A DNA stretch of 64,000 nt, taken from positions 1 through 64,000 of the forward strand of contig JAQCLE010000007.1 in NCBI GenBank assembly GCA_027592755.1, given 5' to 3'. Source of the DNA: Bacteroidota bacterium (GTDB lineage: Bacteria; Bacteroidota; Bacteroidia; Cytophagales; Cyclobacteriaceae). Positions 19,088-29,955 of the stretch are shown here, piece after piece. The notes beneath the pieces were generated by a model. The model was not told the origin of the DNA. It did no database searches and saw only the letters and a program-made list of their open reading frames with translations. How positions within the stretch are numbered: the first letter of the stretch is position 1; each line of letters begins with the position of its first letter. A program made the translations under genes and the position numbers.

Positions 19088-20209
19088 CTAATTGTCACGT
19101 CTAATAAAGATAAAATCACCACCTTCATCACCGGCATTTTGGACAGTACCATACTGAGGAATATTCGGACTATTGTTCAATACCGCATCCCGAAAACTTG
19201 AAAAAAGCTTTTCAGCTGAAAGATATTTCTCCTCATTCTCATCGAGTCGTTTTACCATGTATTCCAGGAATACACTTTTGTCTGGAACAGCCTTCAGTGT
19301 CCCACTGGTCATGGCTTTCCTGCTTGGTAAGGCATACATCTTATTAATTGCCGGCTGAGCGTCAGTAAATGCTGACCGAGTCTTAAAAATCGAGCCACTG
19401 AAACAAGCATCTGCTACAAGAAGCGTGTGTTTGGAGTCAATACTACCAATGTAATCACTGATTGTACTGTTTCTTATCCAAAAGGCAGTATTAGCCTTCC
19501 TTGCATCGGAAGGTAGCCAATAACCCAATTCTCTTTCTTCGTCCCACCAACCATGACCGGCGTAAAAAATCAACAGGTTGTCGTCACCTTTCACCTTTCT
19601 ACTCAAAACATCAAACGCGTCAATAAAATCCTCATAGGTGGCATTTTTCAACATCGTGACGTTCTCAGTATCAAAAGTATACTTGGTAGTGAGCTCTGCA
19701 TATAAATTTTCGGCATCTGCTATTGGCTGATCCAGATGGGTGATGTTGGCATCCTGATACTGATTGATACCAACTATTAATGCATAGTATTTTCCTCTGA
19801 CGGCCACTCCTTCGACGCCTTCCGCTGTTCTAGAAACATAAAAGTTTTTCTCTGTCTCATTATTATTACTGTCAATTACCTTAAGTGTTATATGGTTCTC
19901 CCCATCAATAAGTGGAATAGTAGTTCTGAAAATACCCTGGTTATCTATTGGAGTTATGTTACCATTCACATGGAATTGAACAATACCCTGAGCGTCTTCG
20001 ATTCGACCTGCAAGCTCCAAATAGGCACTCTTAATCGAATAAGCACCACGGGGAAGGCTTTCTAATTCAGTAGGTCTGAATATGGAAATTATCGATGGTT
20101 CATCATCGGCGAAGTTGACGGTGATTTTTGGGGTTTTTTGGGTTACGGTCTGTGCCTGGGTAAGGCTCGCAAACAAAATAATGCCCAGAATTAATGCTAA
20201 TATTTTCAT
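19088..20209 (-). CDS. Secreted caspase-family (peptidase C14) protein
   Basis: A 373-residue exported caspase-fold protease. Residues 1-20 are a signal peptide ending at QAQ. An Ig-like beta domain (about 50-127) precedes the caspase domain (about 138-373). The catalytic dyad is present: H219 in YAGHGWWDE and C269 in ADACFSGS. YALIVGINQYQD is the standard first strand. The substrate is unknown; bacterial orthocaspases generally cut after Arg or Lys, but specificity cannot be read here. It lies downstream of the broken T9SS giant gene, separated by a 282-base gap with hairpin repeats. Confidence 0.88.
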   Translation of the reverse strand: MKILALILGIILFASLTQAQTVTQKTPKITVNFADDEPSIISIFRPTELESLPRGAYSIKSAYLELAGRIEDAQGIVQFHVNGNITPIDNQGIFRTTIPLIDGENHITLKVIDSNNNETEKNFYVSRTAEGVEGVAVRGKYYALIVGINQYQDANITHLDQPIADAENLYAELTTKYTFDTENVTMLKNATYEDFIDAFDVLSRKVKGDDNLLIFYAGHGWWDEERELGYWLPSDARKANTAFWIRNSTISDYIGSIDSKHTLLVADACFSGSIFKTRSAFTDAQPAINKMYALPSRKAMTSGTLKAVPDKSVFLEYMVKRLDENEEKYLSAEKLFSSFRDAVLNNSPNIPQYGTVQNAGDEGGDFIFIRRDN

Positions 20210-20336
20210 TTTGTCTATTTTTTATTGCACTCTGGTACTATAAATATAAGTTATTAGTTAGTCAGATTAATAATTAATGATAATTCTTTCATCGTGAAAC
20301 CAATGCTTCATTACCCGCTTCTTATTTAGCTTAATG

Positions 20337-20460
20337 CATTGCCTTGTCAAGCAGGGCAATTACAAAAAGCGAGAGAAGTCATTAAGTATACGACTTGATC
20401 AGGTAATCCATAACGTATTCACTAACTGGATTACCCGGCTAAACCGGGCAATGACAAAAT
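20337..20460. repeat. Two REP-like intergenic palindromic units
   Basis: Two related hairpin units lie in the gap 20210-20491. The second has a GC stem CCCGG/CCGGG at 20434-20448, followed by GCAATGACAAAA. The first, at about 20337-20366, has ATTGCC with GGGCAAT followed by TACAAAA. An additional inverted pair, GGTAATCC (20402-20409) and GGATTACC (20428-20435), links into the second hairpin. The shared GGGCAAT-x-ACAAAA end suggests copies of one repeat family. The rest of the gap shows no gene. Confidence 0.45.
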
Positions 20461-20491
20461 AGTATGAAGGGAATACCCGACCAATACTCTA

Positions 20492-23400
20492 CTACCTCTT
20501 TATCATTAACTTTTTAAATGGAATCGACCTATTATCGTATTCCAGTTTATATAAATACAAACCATCGGGTAATGCCGTTCCGGATTGATCATTGCCATCC
20601 CAGGTAATTTCAAATGACCCCTTACCTACTTCACTGTTCAATAGCTCAACTACTCTTTGACCGAAAAGGTTATAAAGAGAAACCTTAATGTCGTAGTAAT
20701 CTCTCTCGCCGCTGATATACACAGGGATATTCACTTCATTTTTTAAGGGATTGGGATAAGCATCACCCAGCAAACTCACCTGATCCAATATGGATTCATC
20801 ATGAAGGCTGAAGATTACCTTCATAGATGTTTCTAATTTTCCGGGAATGCTCATTGAGCCATTCGCCTTCATATCAAGCGCTTCACTGGTTTCGCTGTTA
20901 ACCAAAACAAAATATCCATCTACTTGTGACAGCATCTCATTGTCCCATTGAAGAAGCGTAGGGGTATCATAGCTGCTTCCCACATTGAATTCCCAGGTAT
21001 ATTCACTGGTTGATCGCACGACATTTTGTGTCACTGGATAATCCTCATTTTCCAGATCAAAATCCATTTCGATATATTCTATAAATCTTGGGGGGCTCCA
21101 TAGATCATACTCATCTTTACCCTCTATGGCATTGCGATTCATTCCGATCGCTCCCAGGCCATGGTTTAAATCGCCATTGGCTATCTTGAAATTAAGCCGC
21201 CAGTTTTCAGAATTTTCAAAATTTGATATAAGCCTTCCTGTTGAAGTTGTTTTTCTTCCGGTAGCCGCAGCGGTTATTGGTATTTCAAAGTTGGTTACCG
21301 CACCCGAAGACATGACGTAAGCTCCTTCGAATGTTCCAAGTGTTGGTTTTGTATTATAGCCTGTCGCTGTATAATAATATACCTGGGTCTCTACTTCGGA
21401 AGTAACAACTCCCTCATCGATGTTGTGCTGAACCACATCTCCCCAGTCAAGTGAGGCCAGGTAAGGATTGCCAATCAGATTCCAACCTAACTTTAAATTG
21501 ATCGTAAATGGCGTACCCGGGCCGGCATTGACAGTCGTTCCACCTCCAACATTTAGCGTTGTTGATTCTTTGGCCAGGAACCAGTAACCGGTACCCGGCT
21601 GCAGGGTTGATCCTGTACTCAAATCTGAAGTTGTTGTTCCATTGTACTGGAGAATCCGCCAGTCTTTCTTGTTAGTCTTGCCTGACAATTCTTCGAAAGC
21701 TGTCCCAACTGTAAGTCCTTCCAATGGCATAGCAAATATTCGATAATTGGTAACCAGACTGCCGAAACCAAGCTTAGAGGTGATGTTCTCCGTATTTTCT
21801 GGTATTTCTAAATCGATAAAACCAACAACATCATCGGTGCACTCTGATACATTTTCTACTAAGAATCCATAACCAATTCCTACTGATTTAAAATCATTCG
21901 GACCAAAAGTGAAGCTAAAAATACCGTCACCTTCATCCGTGGCCGCTACAATTTGGACCTCAGTGTCATTGCCTCTTATATAAATGAACGCTACGCCGCT
22001 TATCGCTTGTGTGTCGGTTACTTTTGCCTTCACCGTAACTGAGGCATCAACACCCTTAATAAAATTGCGTGGATTGGTGGTATCAAGTGAAATCGACAGG
22101 TCAGCGCAAGTTGAGGCAGCTTCCACAGTTACTGTTACTGCCCAATCCTGTGTTGTAACACCGTCTTGCGCTGTAACAACATACGTCACGGCATTAGTAA
22201 AATCATTAGAAGTGGTACCGCTTACCTGGAATGTACCTCCAACAGTTGCGGAAGCACCATCTGATAAGGTGAAGGTGGCCACAAGGCCATTCAAATTGGT
22301 GCCGCTGGCCACTTCAATTCCTATTGTACCAGTTCCAATTGTTGCCGATCCAGTCTGTTCCGGGAAGCTAAATGATGTTATTTCTGTTGCATTGCTCAAT
22401 GTCCCCGTTGTAACCGTTACAGCCCAGGGTTGGGTCGTACCATCTTCCGCAATGATCGTGTAAGTAACCGTGCCCGTGAAATTATTAGGGGTAGTACCAC
22501 TGATCTGGGCGATTCCATTAACCTCTGCTCTGGCACCATCTGAGAGATTAAATGTTGCAATCAATGAGGTTAAGTCGGCACCAGTGGCAACTGGTATATT
22601 TATCGTATGATTAACAACATCCGGAATAACAATGCTTGTTTGTTCATTAAAATTGAAAGAAGTAATATCAGTTTCTGACGATAAAGACCCTTCATCCACA
22701 AATAAATCGGCAATTTCTGTATCAGAGAGTGCCCGGTTATAGATACGGAAATCATCTACTGTACCGTCCCATGATTCAACAAGCCCCCCACCAGATCCCT
22801 TGTATGAACCAATGGCCATGGTTTCAAGGTCGGAATAAACATATTCATGAACCATCGTCCCTCTGGGCAGCCCGTCCCAATAAAGCGTCCAGGTCGTATT
22901 GGGATCATCATAAACAATAGAAAGAAGATGAGCTCCTCCATCGTTGACACTAGGTTCGGTAACTAACATCTCTGTAATTGAACCATCTGCCACCCGGGCA
23001 AGAATATGAATATTTTCACCGGCCCCCTGTGTATCACATATGAAGCCATAATAGGGAGCACTGACGTTATCAAAATCTCCTAAAAAGGCCTGAAAATCAG
23101 CTGCGCTTGAAGCGTACCAGCCTGAAAGAGTGAAAGAACTGTTATCAGGGATTGAATAATTGGTGCTGATTCTGTCATCCAAACCGTCAAAGGCATAAGC
23201 ACGGTCTATGTCACCGAATCTGTCGGTTGTGAGCAAAGCTTCAACAACCGTCGCGTTATAACCATTGCCACTTTCATCATTGGCATTACCATTAAATGGA
23301 TAATAGGCCACCATCCCTTCAGACAATGGTGGAAGTTTCTTTACTTTGATTGTCCAATCCCGAGGTGTTCCGTCTTCGGCGGTTATTTTATAAACAACAT

Positions 23401-23593
23401 CCGCACTAAAGTTATTCGCTGTAATGCCCGTTATTTGATTATTCGCAACAATAGTTGCAACCGCTCCATTAGAAAGGGCAAATTCTGCGGTCAGTTGATT
23501 GAGATTGGTCTCATTAGCAACCTTCACATCGATTGTATTGGTCTCAACATCAATGACGCCATTATAAAAAGGTATTTCAATGACATAATTCAA
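20492..23593 (-). CDS. C-terminal fragment of the giant surface protein, with LamG and T9SS sorting domain
   Basis: A 1033-codon open frame from the first ATG after the TGA at 23681. The first residues (to about 8) finish the C-type lectin-like domain begun upstream. A DUF5018-like strand module (about 10-87), a LamG/concanavalin fold (about 94-300) and two more DUF5018-like modules (about 310-490) follow, then an Ig-like part with a CADLSISLDTTNPRN start. The final ~90 residues form a type A T9SS sorting domain (LLGDAYPNPL ... DGLYLYKLEYDNR ... KKLMIKR). There is no signal peptide, so an independent product would stay inside the cell. It is best read as the end of a broken gene. Confidence 0.7.
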   Translation of the reverse strand: MNYVIEIPFYNGVIDVETNTIDVKVANETNLNQLTAEFALSNGAVATIVANNQITGITANNFSADVVYKITAEDGTPRDWTIKVKKLPPLSEGMVAYYPFNGNANDESGNGYNATVVEALLTTDRFGDIDRAYAFDGLDDRISTNYSIPDNSSFTLSGWYASSAADFQAFLGDFDNVSAPYYGFICDTQGAGENIHILARVADGSITEMLVTEPSVNDGGAHLLSIVYDDPNTTWTLYWDGLPRGTMVHEYVYSDLETMAIGSYKGSGGGLVESWDGTVDDFRIYNRALSDTEIADLFVDEGSLSSETDITSFNFNEQTSIVIPDVVNHTINIPVATGADLTSLIATFNLSDGARAEVNGIAQISGTTPNNFTGTVTYTIIAEDGTTQPWAVTVTTGTLSNATEITSFSFPEQTGSATIGTGTIGIEVASGTNLNGLVATFTLSDGASATVGGTFQVSGTTSNDFTNAVTYVVTAQDGVTTQDWAVTVTVEAASTCADLSISLDTTNPRNFIKGVDASVTVKAKVTDTQAISGVAFIYIRGNDTEVQIVAATDEGDGIFSFTFGPNDFKSVGIGYGFLVENVSECTDDVVGFIDLEIPENTENITSKLGFGSLVTNYRIFAMPLEGLTVGTAFEELSGKTNKKDWRILQYNGTTTSDLSTGSTLQPGTGYWFLAKESTTLNVGGGTTVNAGPGTPFTINLKLGWNLIGNPYLASLDWGDVVQHNIDEGVVTSEVETQVYYYTATGYNTKPTLGTFEGAYVMSSGAVTNFEIPITAAATGRKTTSTGRLISNFENSENWRLNFKIANGDLNHGLGAIGMNRNAIEGKDEYDLWSPPRFIEYIEMDFDLENEDYPVTQNVVRSTSEYTWEFNVGSSYDTPTLLQWDNEMLSQVDGYFVLVNSETSEALDMKANGSMSIPGKLETSMKVIFSLHDESILDQVSLLGDAYPNPLKNEVNIPVYISGERDYYDIKVSLYNLFGQRVVELLNSEVGKGSFEITWDGNDQSGTALPDGLYLYKLEYDNRSIPFKKLMIKR

Positions 23594-23680
23594 AGCCTGA
23601 TCAGACAGGTCATTCCATTCTCCGGATGCGTTAGTTTGTACATAATTTTCACTTACCCCGCCATTTGGCTCATCTGGGCC

Positions 23681-26600
23681 TCATCCTTCATAATCAATGA
23701 TAGTTCCATCAACCCAGGTAAAATTTCCTTCATCATACTGGTCAGTCATTCCCAGCCATACGTTTTCCGTTATTCGGTTGGCAATGAATGTATTTTCAAC
23801 ACTGGAATGGACCGTAGCCAGTTTCCAGCCCTGGGCTTCAGCGGCAGCCCTGGCGTCATTCCATAACGCCGGAGTTTTTGAGATATAGTAATATTTCCCA
23901 ACCAATTGCCCAAGAAAGGTGTATTCAGAAACATTTGGCACCTGGCTCAGTCGATAAAAAACGATGTCATTTCCTGTGAATGTCGGTTTTTCATTTACGT
24001 AAGTATCGAGGATTTCAAAATCTGTTAGTGCATTGGAGTATATCCTCACCTCATCAATCTTGCCGCCAAAAAATTCATCTTCAATTCCGTTAAATGGATT
24101 ATTGCCAATTAAGAAATTGCCAAGCCCGGCTATATTGCCACTTGCAACTACTTCTGATACCAGTTCACCATTCTGAAACAATTTTAATGCACTTCCATCA
24201 TAAGTGGTAACACTAAATGTCCAGTCTCCTTCCGGGACAATTTTGCCAAATGTGCTGTAGGTAGTGCCTAGATCATTGGTAAAAAAAGATCGCAGGTTGA
24301 AACTGTTTTGACGTATGCCAAGACTTACCCCACCATCGTTGCTATCAACAGTACTCGAAACAATTCCCTGGTGTCCTGTGGAATGAGATTTGGTACGATA
24401 AGCCCAGGCCATAACGGTGAATTCATTGACTAATGCCTGTGTCGTTATTGGCAAAGTGATCTGATCATCAATTCCATCGAATGTATAGGCTTCATCTGGC
24501 CCATCAAATCGATCTGTTGTAAGCGTAATTCCACCCGATTCAATACCATGATTACCATTACCACTTTCGTCGTTGGTATTGCTGTTGAATGGGTAATAAG
24601 CAATTAAACTTGAGATGCCTCCAATAATATTCTTAAAAATTGAAACAGTTGAAATCGTATTACCGGAATAATTTGCCGTAGCCAAATCTGGCCTCCCATC
24701 GCTGTCTAAATCTCCAATAGAAACAAAAAATGGCGCTGAATCTGCAGCAAAGTCTACTTTGGGTAAATAATCAATTACGCCCGGACCTGAACTACTGTTT
24801 TTTAATACCGATACAGCACTCGGACCATTCGTAACCACCAAATCTACTTTGCTATCTCCATCTATATCACCAATCGAAACTGAAGTCGGTGATGAACCAA
24901 TTGAATATTTTACTTGGGAGGCATAATTGATAATCCCAGGTCCGGAACTTGAATTTCTAAAAACTGAAATAGTGGTGCTTCCATAATTTGCTACGGCTAA
25001 ATCCGCTTTATTATCCCCGTCTAAATCACCGATAGATACTGAAAACGGTTGTGCATCAGTGGCATAATCAATTTTGGAATCATAACTAATTATCCCATCT
25101 CCAATTCCCGTGTTTCTGAAGACAGAAACAGTATTACTTGAACCATTTGCCACTACCAGATCAACTTTACCGTCTCCATCCAAATCACTTGTTGCAACTG
25201 ACGATGGGCCCCCGCTAGTCAAATCCACTTTTGGATCAAAAGCAATAATTCCAATACTTGTACTGATGTTTCTTAATATTGAGACCGTCGAATTGCCACC
25301 ATTTGCTACTACTATATCTGCCTTTCCATCTCCATCAAAGTCGTTAATTGAAACTGATTGTGGAAATAATCCGGTTGAATAATCAACACTAGCGGCAAGA
25401 CTTATTGAACCACTAGCACTTGTATTTCTAAATACCGATATCTTGGAAGTTTCCTCATTTGCTACCACCAAATCCACTCTACCATCACCGTCCAAGTCTC
25501 CTAAAGCAACTGATCGAGGATGAGTTTGAGAGCTGTAATCGACCTTATTATCAAAACTAATTCCACTTTCTAAGACACTAATATTCCTAAAAATGGAAAC
25601 AGAATTACTAAAGTAATTTGCAGCGACTAAATCGGCTTTCCCATCTCCATCCAAATCGCCAATGGAGATGGACTGTGCACCTGATCCACTAATTAAATCA
25701 ATTTTGGACTCAAAGGAATTAGAGTCAATAATGCCACCACCCAAAAAAGTCACTATAAAAGGAGCGGGAGAATACACTAAAAGCCCGTTGACAAGAACAG
25801 ATATCGCATTATATGTAGCTCCCATAGGTACAGTAACAATGAGCGATGTTGCAGTGGCAGATTTCACATTCGCTTTTGTAGCACCAAACCATACTATATT
25901 GTTGGCCGGAGTTTCGTCGAAATTACTACCTGAAATTGTTACTTCTGTACCAATTGGACCACTTGCAGGTGTGACGGAGGTTATCGATGGGACAAGACCT
26001 GAGCAAAGCTTCGAATCACCGGAAATATTCCACGAATGTGAATTGATAAGCGTGTTACGAGCTGTTTCTCCTGCACAATAGGTTAATCCGGTTGCCCCCA
26101 AGGTAATGGATGAGGGTATTTGAGTCTCTAAAACATCCAGAGCGGCCCAGCCTATCAGGGTATTGTCGTAATTAGTGGAGGACATGCCGGAATTATCAAG
26201 CATATTTGTCATATCCGTCACAAAACTTATATCCCAGGAAGATAAGTCCTGATCAAACTCACTCGCTTCACGAAACATCTCAAATAATGTACCTGCAACA
26301 CTCATGTCCCATTGATTTAATGGTTGATTAAATCCAGTATTCGACCAAAATGTCCCGGTAAAGTTTTGAACACTACTGACATCCCAATTGTTCAAAGGCT
26401 GATTAAAACTACTGGCACCCCAAAACATATATGCCATGTTTATTACGCTACTTACATCCCAGTTTCCGATGGGTTGATTAAATGGTGAATTCGCAAACAT
26501 TCCTTGCATGTTGGTAGCATTACCCACATCCCAACCAGATATATCGTAATTGAAAGCCGAATTCAGGAACATGTCTTGAAAATTTAGAATATTGGTGACA

Positions 26601-27781
26601 TCCCAGTTGCTGGAAATGGTATTTATACTGGTGCCATTAAACATCGATCGAGCACTTGTAACATTGCTGAGATCAGGTGCATCAGAAGCATTGCTTACCA
26701 GGTTCGAACATCCCCAAAACATATTTTCGAATGAACTCCAGGATATGCTCCCCCATTGATCCATAGAAACTATCTTATCCAATTGTTGCCCCTCGCCTCC
26801 ACCATTAAAATAAATACGAGGAAAAGTTCCGGTAATAGCTACTGAATAGGTACCTGCCGCGGCATAGACATGGGTGGCATCCCCGGTAAAACCTGACTCT
26901 ATCGTTCCATCGCCCCAGTCAACAGTATAGTTATAGGTCTCCCCTGTAAAAGTTGGGATGGTGATAGATTCACTCGCGGTGGTGGTTTGCCATGTCGTGA
27001 TGAAAGCACCATCATTAATAGCGTTGCGAAAAATAGAAACGGCATCAACTGCAACGTTTGTAACTACAACCTCAGGTTTACCGTCCCCATCTATGTCGCC
27101 AATAGCCAACCCCAGTGGTTGAGTCCCTGTTGTAAAATCTACTTTTGCAGAAAAAGAACTGGCGTTAATTGTACCAGAAGTACTTACTTTTTTAAAGACG
27201 GAAACATTGTCAGTCCCAAAGTTGGCAACAACAACATCTGGTTTACCGTCCCCATCAATATCCCCTATCGCTGAATAATAAGGTGTAGAGTTTGTTGTGA
27301 AATCTTGTTTTAAAGCGGTAATGGACCCTACAGTACTGGTATTTCGGAAAATTGAAATAGATGAGCTGGCAATGTTCGTTACAATTATGTCTGATTTGCC
27401 GTCTCCGTCAAGGTCACCAATTGCAACACCTCGTGGTTGGTCCCCCGTTGTAAAAATTTCATTCGAGCCAAAGGAAATTGGAACAGGACCGGGTGTACTT
27501 GTATTCCGGAATATAGTAACTGTGCCCGCACCTTCGTCTGTTACAACCATGTCTGGTTTGTTGTCTCCATCAATGTCACCGATAGCCACGCCAAAAGCTG
27601 AGTTTCCTCCAGTCCCGACATCTACTTTTGCAGCAAAGGAGCCAATGGTTATGGAACCTAATGTACTTATGTTTCTAAATACAGAAACCAAAGCACCTGT
27701 TACAATTAAGTCCGGTTTACCATCCTGATCAAGGTCTCTGATAGCTACGCCTGTTAGAAGATTTGTTACTGCCAAATCCAC
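23681..27781 (-). CDS. Middle fragment of the giant surface protein: FG-GAP repeats, BspA-like repeats, LamG, C-type lectin
   Basis: A 1366-codon open frame. Five FG-GAP/VCBS repeats (about 1-250, core D-x-D-G-D-G-K-P-D) bind calcium in related proteins. A PKD-like segment (about 260-320) contains VDWGDGTIES. BspA-like DUF285 repeats (about 330-560) carry FNQPLNNWDVSSV units. An IPT/TIG domain spans about 598-685, seven further FG-GAP repeats about 690-1040, and LamG about 1060-1250. A C-type lectin-like domain starts near 1275 and is cut by TGA within the WxDG...Y-x-x-W-G-P-x-E-P-N motif. There is no signal peptide of its own. The upstream stop is an in-frame TAA. Confidence 0.7.
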   Translation of the reverse strand: MDLAVTNLLTGVAIRDLDQDGKPDLIVTGALVSVFRNISTLGSITIGSFAAKVDVGTGGNSAFGVAIGDIDGDNKPDMVVTDEGAGTVTIFRNTSTPGPVPISFGSNEIFTTGDQPRGVAIGDLDGDGKSDIIVTNIASSSISIFRNTSTVGSITALKQDFTTNSTPYYSAIGDIDGDGKPDVVVANFGTDNVSVFKKVSTSGTINASSFSAKVDFTTGTQPLGLAIGDIDGDGKPEVVVTNVAVDAVSIFRNAINDGAFITTWQTTTASESITIPTFTGETYNYTVDWGDGTIESGFTGDATHVYAAAGTYSVAITGTFPRIYFNGGGEGQQLDKIVSMDQWGSISWSSFENMFWGCSNLVSNASDAPDLSNVTSARSMFNGTSINTISSNWDVTNILNFQDMFLNSAFNYDISGWDVGNATNMQGMFANSPFNQPIGNWDVSSVINMAYMFWGASSFNQPLNNWDVSSVQNFTGTFWSNTGFNQPLNQWDMSVAGTLFEMFREASEFDQDLSSWDISFVTDMTNMLDNSGMSSTNYDNTLIGWAALDVLETQIPSSITLGATGLTYCAGETARNTLINSHSWNISGDSKLCSGLVPSITSVTPASGPIGTEVTISGSNFDETPANNIVWFGATKANVKSATATSLIVTVPMGATYNAISVLVNGLLVYSPAPFIVTFLGGGIIDSNSFESKIDLISGSGAQSISIGDLDGDGKADLVAANYFSNSVSIFRNISVLESGISFDNKVDYSSQTHPRSVALGDLDGDGRVDLVVANEETSKISVFRNTSASGSISLAASVDYSTGLFPQSVSINDFDGDGKADIVVANGGNSTVSILRNISTSIGIIAFDPKVDLTSGGPSSVATSDLDGDGKVDLVVANGSSNTVSVFRNTGIGDGIISYDSKIDYATDAQPFSVSIGDLDGDNKADLAVANYGSTTISVFRNSSSGPGIINYASQVKYSIGSSPTSVSIGDIDGDSKVDLVVTNGPSAVSVLKNSSSGPGVIDYLPKVDFAADSAPFFVSIGDLDSDGRPDLATANYSGNTISTVSIFKNIIGGISSLIAYYPFNSNTNDESGNGNHGIESGGITLTTDRFDGPDEAYTFDGIDDQITLPITTQALVNEFTVMAWAYRTKSHSTGHQGIVSSTVDSNDGGVSLGIRQNSFNLRSFFTNDLGTTYSTFGKIVPEGDWTFSVTTYDGSALKLFQNGELVSEVVASGNIAGLGNFLIGNNPFNGIEDEFFGGKIDEVRIYSNALTDFEILDTYVNEKPTFTGNDIVFYRLSQVPNVSEYTFLGQLVGKYYYISKTPALWNDARAAAEAQGWKLATVHSSVENTFIANRITENVWLGMTDQYDEGNFTWVDGTIIDYEG

Positions 27782-27817
27782 TTTGGGGGCGAAGGAGCCT
27801 GTGTTGATGGAGCCTGA

Positions 27818-29188
27818 TTAGCTAGTATTCCGAAAGATGGAAACCGAAGTGCTTCCCTGATTTGTAACTGCTATATCTGGTTTGCCGTCACCGTCAATAT
27901 CACCAATGGCTACACCGTATGGAATTGTTCCCGTAGTAAAATCCACTTGTGTCGCAAAGGAACCTGTTTCAATGGAACCAGAAGTACTTGTATTCCTAAA
28001 GACGGAAACTGTATTTGCGTTGTTGTTAGTAACAACCAAATCAGGTTTGCCGTCTCCGTCAAGGTCTCCTATAGCCACATTGTTTGGGCCACTACCGGTA
28101 GCAAAATCAACTTTTGATAATAGTGTGTTTACATCAATTGTTCCACCTCCATTAAATGTTACAACAAAAGGTTTATTTGAGTAGGCTGTTAGCCCAGCTA
28201 CTTGCACTGTAATCGGCTCGTATGTAGCTCCTGCCGGGACAGTAACCATTAGCTCTGTGTCTGATGCAGCAGTGACAGAAGCTTTTGTTGCTCCAAAGTA
28301 AACAATGTTATTGGCCGGTGTTGCGTCGAAATTAGCACCTGATATTGTTACTGAAGAGCCAACAAGTCCGCTTTCAGGGGTAAAGGAGAGTATTGTTGGA
28401 ATACCAGATTCTATAGGGAAGAGGTTAGAAACTTCAGATGCTGAAAGCCCCCTGTCATAAATTCGAACGTCATCAATAGCTCCAAAAAATGAAGGACCAA
28501 TCTCAGTTGGAAAAACGCTGCCGGTAGTCGCCGTACTTCCGGAAATGTCGAGCGCACCATTAATGTAAATATCAAATGTGCTCCCAGTCCGGGTAAGCGT
28601 TACCATTGTCCAGGAATCAATGGGTATTACACCCGTGGTAACAACGCCATCAAACAGGTAGTTATCGGTATACAATTCACCAGTCTCAGCTAAAATATAA
28701 TCAACATAATTGGCAGCATTGTCAAAAATCAAATATGAACCGCCGATCGTATACGCACTCGGGTTGACCCAAAGGTTATAGGTGAAATCGTCTGTAAGTT
28801 GAACGCCCGTACCGCTATTTATGGCGATATCTGATACTCCATCAAAACTAAAAGCACTTGCCGCTGTACCAAAGCGATCAGTTGTCAGAACCGCTCCTTC
28901 AATGGTTCCATGATACAAATTCCCACTTTCGTCATTGGCATTGCCATTGAAGGGGTAGTAGAGAACATAGTCATCCAATTGTGCCCAACCAAAAAATGAA
29001 AGCAGGGTAAAGCAAAACGTAAATAATATCTTTTTCGAAACTGCTATTAAGTTTGTTTTATAGCAACTTTCATGGGTAAGAATCTCTTTAACCTCTCTCG
29101 TCTTTCGGAGTTTTCCAACCATTCCCACCTCGAGGGGAGTTAGAGGCGTGTTATTATGTATTGATATTTCCAAAATCTTCTCGTTCAA
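27818..29188 (-). CDS. N-terminal fragment of the giant surface protein: signal peptide, LamG, IPT, two FG-GAP repeats
   Basis: 456 codons. A hydrophobic signal segment (KKILFTFCFTLLSFFGWAQ, about 52-70) is preceded by about 50 residues of unusual composition. ATGs at 29188 and 29122 are both possible starts, and none lies directly before the signal. A LamG domain (about 74-262, starting YYPFNGNANDESGN), an IPT/TIG domain (about 268-348) and two FG-GAP repeats follow. It stops at TAA inside the third repeat linker (FRNTS, stop, SGSI). It could be exported but lacks the T9SS sorting domain. The gene starts 14 bases after the stop of the 250-residue protein gene, so the two probably share a transcript. 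Confidence 0.7.
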   Translation of the reverse strand: MNEKILEISIHNNTPLTPLEVGMVGKLRKTREVKEILTHESCYKTNLIAVSKKILFTFCFTLLSFFGWAQLDDYVLYYPFNGNANDESGNLYHGTIEGAVLTTDRFGTAASAFSFDGVSDIAINSGTGVQLTDDFTYNLWVNPSAYTIGGSYLIFDNAANYVDYILAETGELYTDNYLFDGVVTTGVIPIDSWTMVTLTRTGSTFDIYINGALDISGSTATTGSVFPTEIGPSFFGAIDDVRIYDRGLSASEVSNLFPIESGIPTILSFTPESGLVGSSVTISGANFDATPANNIVYFGATKASVTAASDTELMVTVPAGATYEPITVQVAGLTAYSNKPFVVTFNGGGTIDVNTLLSKVDFATGSGPNNVAIGDLDGDGKPDLVVTNNNANTVSVFRNTSTSGSIETGSFATQVDFTTGTIPYGVAIGDIDGDGKPDIAVTNQGSTSVSIFRNTS

Positions 29189-29202
29189 TTATTCCATTCA
29201 TC

Positions 29203-29955
29203 TTAAGGTGTATCGGGTGGACCGGGTAAATCGTCAATTGTATTACCACCTCCACCACCTGGGTCAGCTTCACCACCACCAAACAACCCGGCTGCCGCTG
29301 CACCGCCAACCCCACCACCAATCAATATGGGTAATATCTTAAGCCCAAGTGGAACTTTTCGCTTAATGGAGAACGCTGGAGATAATACATTTTTACTTGG
29401 GTCCGTCCCTGATGAAATTTTTAGTATATAACCACTCCCGACGGGATTATCCTCTGGGACTACCCACAATGTCGATGTTGTGGTCACGCCGGATGCCAGG
29501 GAAGATATTCGGGTTTCATTTTTAAAAAGCTCGACATTGTAACTTTCATTGCGATAGCCACCTTCCCATCTGAGATCAACCATCCTACCTCTTTTCGCAG
29601 TTATATTTTCAGTCAGCAACCGTATTGGGGCGAACGCCAGGTCGGCAATCACTTTGAAATCCAGGTCGCCCTTAAAACCTTTAAACTCTGAAATACCATC
29701 AATTACAAAAGTTAATTTGCTTCCAGGGCTCACTTCCTTGTCCCTCCCCTGCTTCAAACTTATTGCATTCTTGTATCCGTCCATTGACGAAACAATGGTG
29801 ATATCATAAAGTTCGCCTGTACTTCTAACCGGTTTCAAGTCGAAAGAAATCACCATATCGGTACCCTCGAGTTGAAGGCTTAGGCTTTCAATGTTTTGTG
29901 ACACCGCAAGGTGTGAATAAGAACAGATAAGAAGGGTTACAAAATAAATCCGCAT
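29203..29955 (-). CDS. Secreted protein of unknown function with Gly-rich C-terminus
   Basis: 250 residues that I do not recognise as a named family. Residues 1-20 are a signal peptide ending VSQN. The middle (about 20-195) is rich in beta-strand and turn patterns with alternating charged and hydrophobic residues. A short Gly/Ala-rich hydrophobic segment follows (ILPILIGGGVGGAAAAGLF, about 204-222), then a Gly/Pro-rich tail ending in GPPDTP. The C-terminal hydrophobic segment could anchor or oligomerise the protein. It lies directly upstream of the giant T9SS gene, which suggests a role in the same surface structure. This is inference only. Confidence 0.7.
   Translation of the reverse strand: MRIYFVTLLICSYSHLAVSQNIESLSLQLEGTDMVISFDLKPVRSTGELYDITIVSSMDGYKNAISLKQGRDKEVSPGSKLTFVIDGISEFKGFKGDLDFKVIADLAFAPIRLLTENITAKRGRMVDLRWEGGYRNESYNVELFKNETRISSLASGVTTTSTLWVVPEDNPVGSGYILKISSGTDPSKNVLSPAFSIKRKVPLGLKILPILIGGGVGGAAAAGLFGGGEADPGGGGGNTIDDLPGPPDTP

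Follow-up and report, generated by a model that had tools for sequence, protein, structure and literature searches.

To be exported at the outer membrane, T9SS cargo proteins need a Sec signal peptide together with a C-terminal domain (PMC4804311). Belinky et al. (2021, PMC7918605) argue that in-frame stop codons alone, in a gene with no further decay, mark pseudogenes poorly, and readthrough of in-frame stops has been proposed to be common in prokaryotes. The locus examined here lies within a window of 64,000 nucleotides, by which we mean the whole stretch of DNA that was analyzed, and encodes a giant modular T9SS surface protein whose frame contains two stops. In our judgment it is quite probably an ordinary nonsense-interrupted pseudogene, broken fairly recently and still early in decay. 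The gene and its parts are as follows.

20492..29188, minus strand: giant modular T9SS surface protein gene with two in-frame stops
28979..29038, minus strand: signal peptide-like stretch SKKILFTFCFTLLSFFGWAQ in piece 1, read from sequence
27818..27820, minus strand: in-frame TAA within an FG-GAP blade
about 23579-23863, minus strand: C-type lectin domain that holds the TGA, complete only when both sides are read
23681..23683, minus strand: in-frame TGA within the C-type lectin domain
20759..21784, minus strand: conserved C-terminal module of ~340 residues without a Pfam family, common to the giants of relatives
20501..20758, minus strand: T9SS type A C-terminal sorting domain (TIGR04183 and PF18962), on piece 3 only

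The minus strand from 29188 to 20492 is a single frame of 2898 codons. Read from stop to stop, the open stretches comprise 456 codons (piece 1), 1378 codons (piece 2) and 1062 codons (piece 3). The initial annotation had described three consecutive ORFs sharing one minus-strand frame and had placed the interruptions within 27810-27830 and 23670-23690. This layout was borne out, as the exact stop codons fall inside those ranges, they alone close the frame, and no frameshift was found anywhere across its 8.7 kb. Codon scores remained at the coding level up to each stop from both sides. Past the stops the next ATG lies 89 or 122 codons downstream, while alternative starts are possible at a GTG (27781) and a TTG (23593).

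The encoded domains begin with LamG, TIG, an FG-GAP array, a PKD-like domain, DUF285/PARCEL, TIG and a further FG-GAP array. They continue with LamG, the C-type lectin domain, a DUF5018-related domain, LamG, DUF5018-type repeats, the unnamed C-terminal module and the sorting domain. That the domain being read crosses each stop unchanged, as had been claimed, held at both sites. An FG-GAP blade spans the TAA, with a PF13517 (FG-GAP_3) match at 27701-27901 (48.5 bits) containing that one stop, and threonine occupies the position of the TAA in 5/6 other blades of the first FG-GAP array. At the TGA, piece 2 alone matched PF00059 (Lectin_C) over profile positions 5-62 of 107 (E=3e-6), and reading the frame through the stop extended the match to positions 5-104 of 107 (1.4e-10). 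Because the domains cross the stops, coding character reaches both stops, and no ATG follows for another 89 or 122 codons, the three open frames are one gene, not three. Annotating the pieces as individual surface proteins should be avoided.

The sorting domain scored above the curated cut-offs of TIGR04183 (27.7 bits, cut-off 23) and PF18962 (30.3 bits, cut-off 27). A putative signal peptide was recognized on piece 1 only and none was seen on pieces 2 and 3. Which codon starts piece 1 is uncertain, since the hydrophobic stretch begins ~50 codons into the open frame. The two export signals are therefore on different fragments with two stops between them, as the initial annotation stated, and would be on the same polypeptide only if the frame were read through.

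Relatives of the gene were then compared. The C-terminal module occurs in 37 places in 20/59 other genomes of the same family, and 0/37 contain a stop inside the module. Most of the complete module-bearing giants consist of one open frame, about 1,000-4,100 codons long, among them those at loci L065 (1522 codons), L066 (2911), L067 (1089), L071 (1627), L074 (1676) and L081 (2454). The closest relatives of the giant gene in the genomes searched are ~30% identical, with no close orthologue there, and a scan of a collection of genome contigs gave no relative of piece 3. For the PEP carboxylase gene, scanning that collection yielded Reichenbachiella faecimaris alone, which points to the order Cytophagales. 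No syntenic copy was found between PEP carboxylase and argininosuccinate synthase; these flanking genes are on different contigs in the relatives checked. The orthologue comparison suggested in the earlier reading thus favored one interrupted T9SS gene, with intact single-frame giants in relatives and no instance of three genes with a signal peptide on each. As judged from these sequences, the relatives settle the probable ancestral state as an uninterrupted gene. Some relatives' giants are themselves broken by frameshifts that may be genuine or may be indel errors, at about 4900 in L068, at about 6640 and 3360 in L070, and at about 3310 in L072; L068 and L070 come from one single-contig assembly, where such errors are possible. 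Because of these cases, loss of such giant genes may recur among relatives.

The gene resembles a nonsense pseudogene in having intact homologues in relatives and domains interrupted by stops. Against this reading, further damage of the kind usual in decaying genes is lacking: the 8.7 kb contain no frameshift, and missense decay is not visible. The caution on in-frame stops (PMC7918605) also applies. With transitions weighted twofold, ~3.2% of single substitutions in the frame would create a stop. By rough inference, a few tens of neutral substitutions, or divergence on the order of 0.5%, would be expected to yield two stops. At usual bacterial indel rates the lack of any frameshift over such a period is somewhat improbable, though nothing remarkable. 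The ligand motif is still matched by all 14 FG-GAP blades (14/14), which also fits recent decay. Among the three options offered initially (recent decay, phase-like inactivation and suppressed stops), recent decay is the best fit.

An unlikely alternative, though the one that survives best, is that assembly error or a minority allele accounts for one stop or for both, the gene being intact in most cells. The source genome is a draft (196 contigs, 4.2 Mb, 98% complete) and probably metagenome-derived, which makes such errors conceivable, and the giant gene lacks a frameshift or other decay. Two independent wrong substitutions within one gene are unlikely, however, and random error would show no preference for particular genes, whereas in-frame breaks cluster in exported accessory genes. 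On contig C151 an FG-GAP-type lipoprotein gene has an in-frame TAG (L090 5476), and a very similar intact paralogue is on C162 (L097 4261-5811). A very large cadherin-repeat T9SS gene on C11 has an in-frame TGA and a frameshift (L099 89-8277). An exported-protein gene on C1 is broken by a TAA and a frameshift, and two more genes from the set with FG-GAP, cadherin-repeat, kelch or sulfatase domains, on C41 and C47, are broken by frameshifts. Sulfatase genes on C107, C133 and C39 (L168, L169, L170) are broken by stops or frameshifts. The list covers loci picked for their FG-GAP or similar domains, with frameshifts noted by eye, and is not a genome-wide count. The genome has 55 sulfatase matches in 4.2 Mb.

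The window's remaining long genes appear undamaged. In 392 kb sampled from other contigs and surveyed for in-frame stops only, one further in-frame break came up, a kelch gene on C15 interrupted by TAG; the remaining matches were judged by inspection to be ordinary gene junctions. Both observations weigh against error. That breaks cluster in exported accessory genes speaks for relaxed selection over random sequence error, and suggests loss of exported accessory proteins in the source genome.

We consider it very unlikely that some level of readthrough still yields small amounts of the full-length surface protein, perhaps in a regulatory role. Apart from the two stops nothing closes the frame, and coding character flanks each of them; a small chance of readthrough remains because stops without further decay are argued to mark pseudogenes poorly and readthrough has been proposed to be common (PMC7918605). 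Two different stop codons are involved, however, and passing both in turn would leave very little product. None of the 35 typed tRNAs has a stop anticodon (of 36 tRNA matches, a partial one at the end of a contig was left untyped), so the search yielded no suppressor tRNA. A tRNA-Trp with a 4-bp anticodon stem raises UGA readthrough in E. coli (PMC13092985). The sole tRNA-Trp found here has, by inspection, a CCA anticodon, a perfect 5-bp anticodon stem, A9 and G24; it is unlike the UGA-reading forms, and a 4-bp stem was thereby ruled out. The relatives, moreover, have no stops inside the C-terminal module. TAA and TGA each terminate intact conserved genes in the window; this, together with the involvement of two different stop codons, ruled out an alternative genetic code as well. 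Suppressed stops, the third option offered initially, were not upheld on these grounds.

Three separate functional genes are less probable still. Every piece is long and could use an alternative start (GTG 27781, TTG 23593), but the stops split domains, coding character is unbroken up to them, and the next ATG is far downstream. In addition, no signal peptide is recognizable on pieces 2 and 3, and in relatives the counterpart is a single gene.

Diversity-generating retroelements typically target C-type lectin folds, and one stop, the TGA, lies inside such a domain. We nevertheless regard it as almost certain that neither a retroelement acting on the lectin domain nor phase variation made the stops, since reverse transcriptase (PF00078) is absent from the 98% complete genome by a search that matched 3/14 control genomes, the lectin domain is internal, and the region has no inverted repeats and only diverged direct repeats (about 60-74% identical). 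The stops resemble point substitutions with no homopolymer at either one, so that the phase-like inactivation entertained initially found no footing; nothing suitable for variation by repeats or inversion is present at either stop, and the retroelement was ruled out for want of a reverse transcriptase.

Recent nonsense decay therefore remains the preferred reading. Under it, two nonsense substitutions would have inactivated one giant gene for a T9SS-exported modular surface protein. Ribosomes that begin at the start codon would stop at the TAA, leaving a product of ~440 residues that has a signal peptide, lacks a sorting domain and could get no farther than the periplasm. Pieces 2 and 3, without a signal peptide, would not be exportable, and no piece could use the T9SS. 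Export is predicted to be lost because both signals are needed and the stops lie between them. We infer that the product is lost and the gene is functionless, because other exported genes are broken in the same genome and machinery for readthrough is absent. The broken gene itself matters little beyond its source genome.

The genes on either side of the giant are intact.

29203..29955, minus strand: small upstream partner with a signal peptide, a Kre9/KNH-like Ig domain, a glycine-rich hydrophobic stretch and an LPGPP tail
19088..20209, minus strand: downstream gene for a secreted caspase-fold (PF00656) protein that keeps its His (AGHG) and Cys (DACFSG) motifs

The small partner gene is 14 nt upstream of the giant gene. 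A recurrent cassette was observed at 19088-29955 of the window and at L065, L066, L067, L071, L074, L080 and L081, made up of a small Ig-like protein that ends in an LPxPP tail, a giant T9SS protein with the shared C-terminal module and a secreted caspase-fold protein. In relatives, complete giants are often directly behind the small partner gene, whose homologues are beside module-bearing giants at no fewer than six loci (L065, L066, L067, L071, L074 and L081). Caspase-fold genes adjoin giants in L065, L066, L067, L074 and L080. L080, the sole same-genus contig, has the 3' part of such a giant, in which DUF285 repeats, a DUF5018-type match and a sorting domain were recognized; the caspase-fold gene comes next.

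An Ig-like Kre9/KNH domain was detected in 15/16 small proteins; the window copy scored 22.1 bits against a cut-off of 24.6. When the window protein and 15 homologues were aligned, all showed a hydrophobic, often glycine-rich stretch, and the tail was usually LPxPP. The conservation of this tail behind the hydrophobic stretch is reminiscent of a recognition signal. Elsewhere in the source genome, C82 (L101 4472-6142) has the 3' end of a giant and a caspase-fold gene, only the 3' end of that cassette being in view, and C182 (L079 2173-2925) has a small partner gene without an adjoining giant. Each is a remnant or the contig-end part of a further cassette.

We put forward only tentatively, and with rather low confidence, that these genes form an apparently undescribed three-gene surface system of Cytophagales, in which the caspase-fold protein may process or regulate the giant, and from which the window's giant has been lost by nonsense mutation with both partners left intact. 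That the giant is processed by the caspase-fold protein is a guess. Searches of an open-access library gave no description of the cassette, which is weak evidence of novelty. The recurrent link between a giant T9SS protein, an LPxPP partner and a caspase-fold protein suggests a testable role for secreted bacterial caspases, and the cassette is more useful in this respect than the broken gene itself.

Three described groups can be compared with the gene. Like the genes for which readthrough has been proposed (Belinky et al. 2021, PMC7918605), it has stops without other signs of decay, but it differs from them in having no evidence that the stops are conserved across species and no suppressing tRNA found. 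With T9SS type A cargo, the large modular surface proteins of Bacteroidota recognized by TIGR04183 and PF18962, it shares a signal peptide, arrays of adhesion-type domains and a C-terminal sorting domain. In the window gene, however, the signal peptide is cut off from the sorting domain by two stops, and with the signals on separate pieces the gene as it now stands therefore does not work as a cargo gene. Bacterial nonsense-type pseudogenes (reviewed in PMC11078800; Pseudofinder, PMC9336565) are alike in their in-frame stops, in having intact relatives and in the company of other broken accessory genes. Compared with these, the window gene has not yet acquired a frameshift in 8.7 kb, and its decay therefore looks recent.
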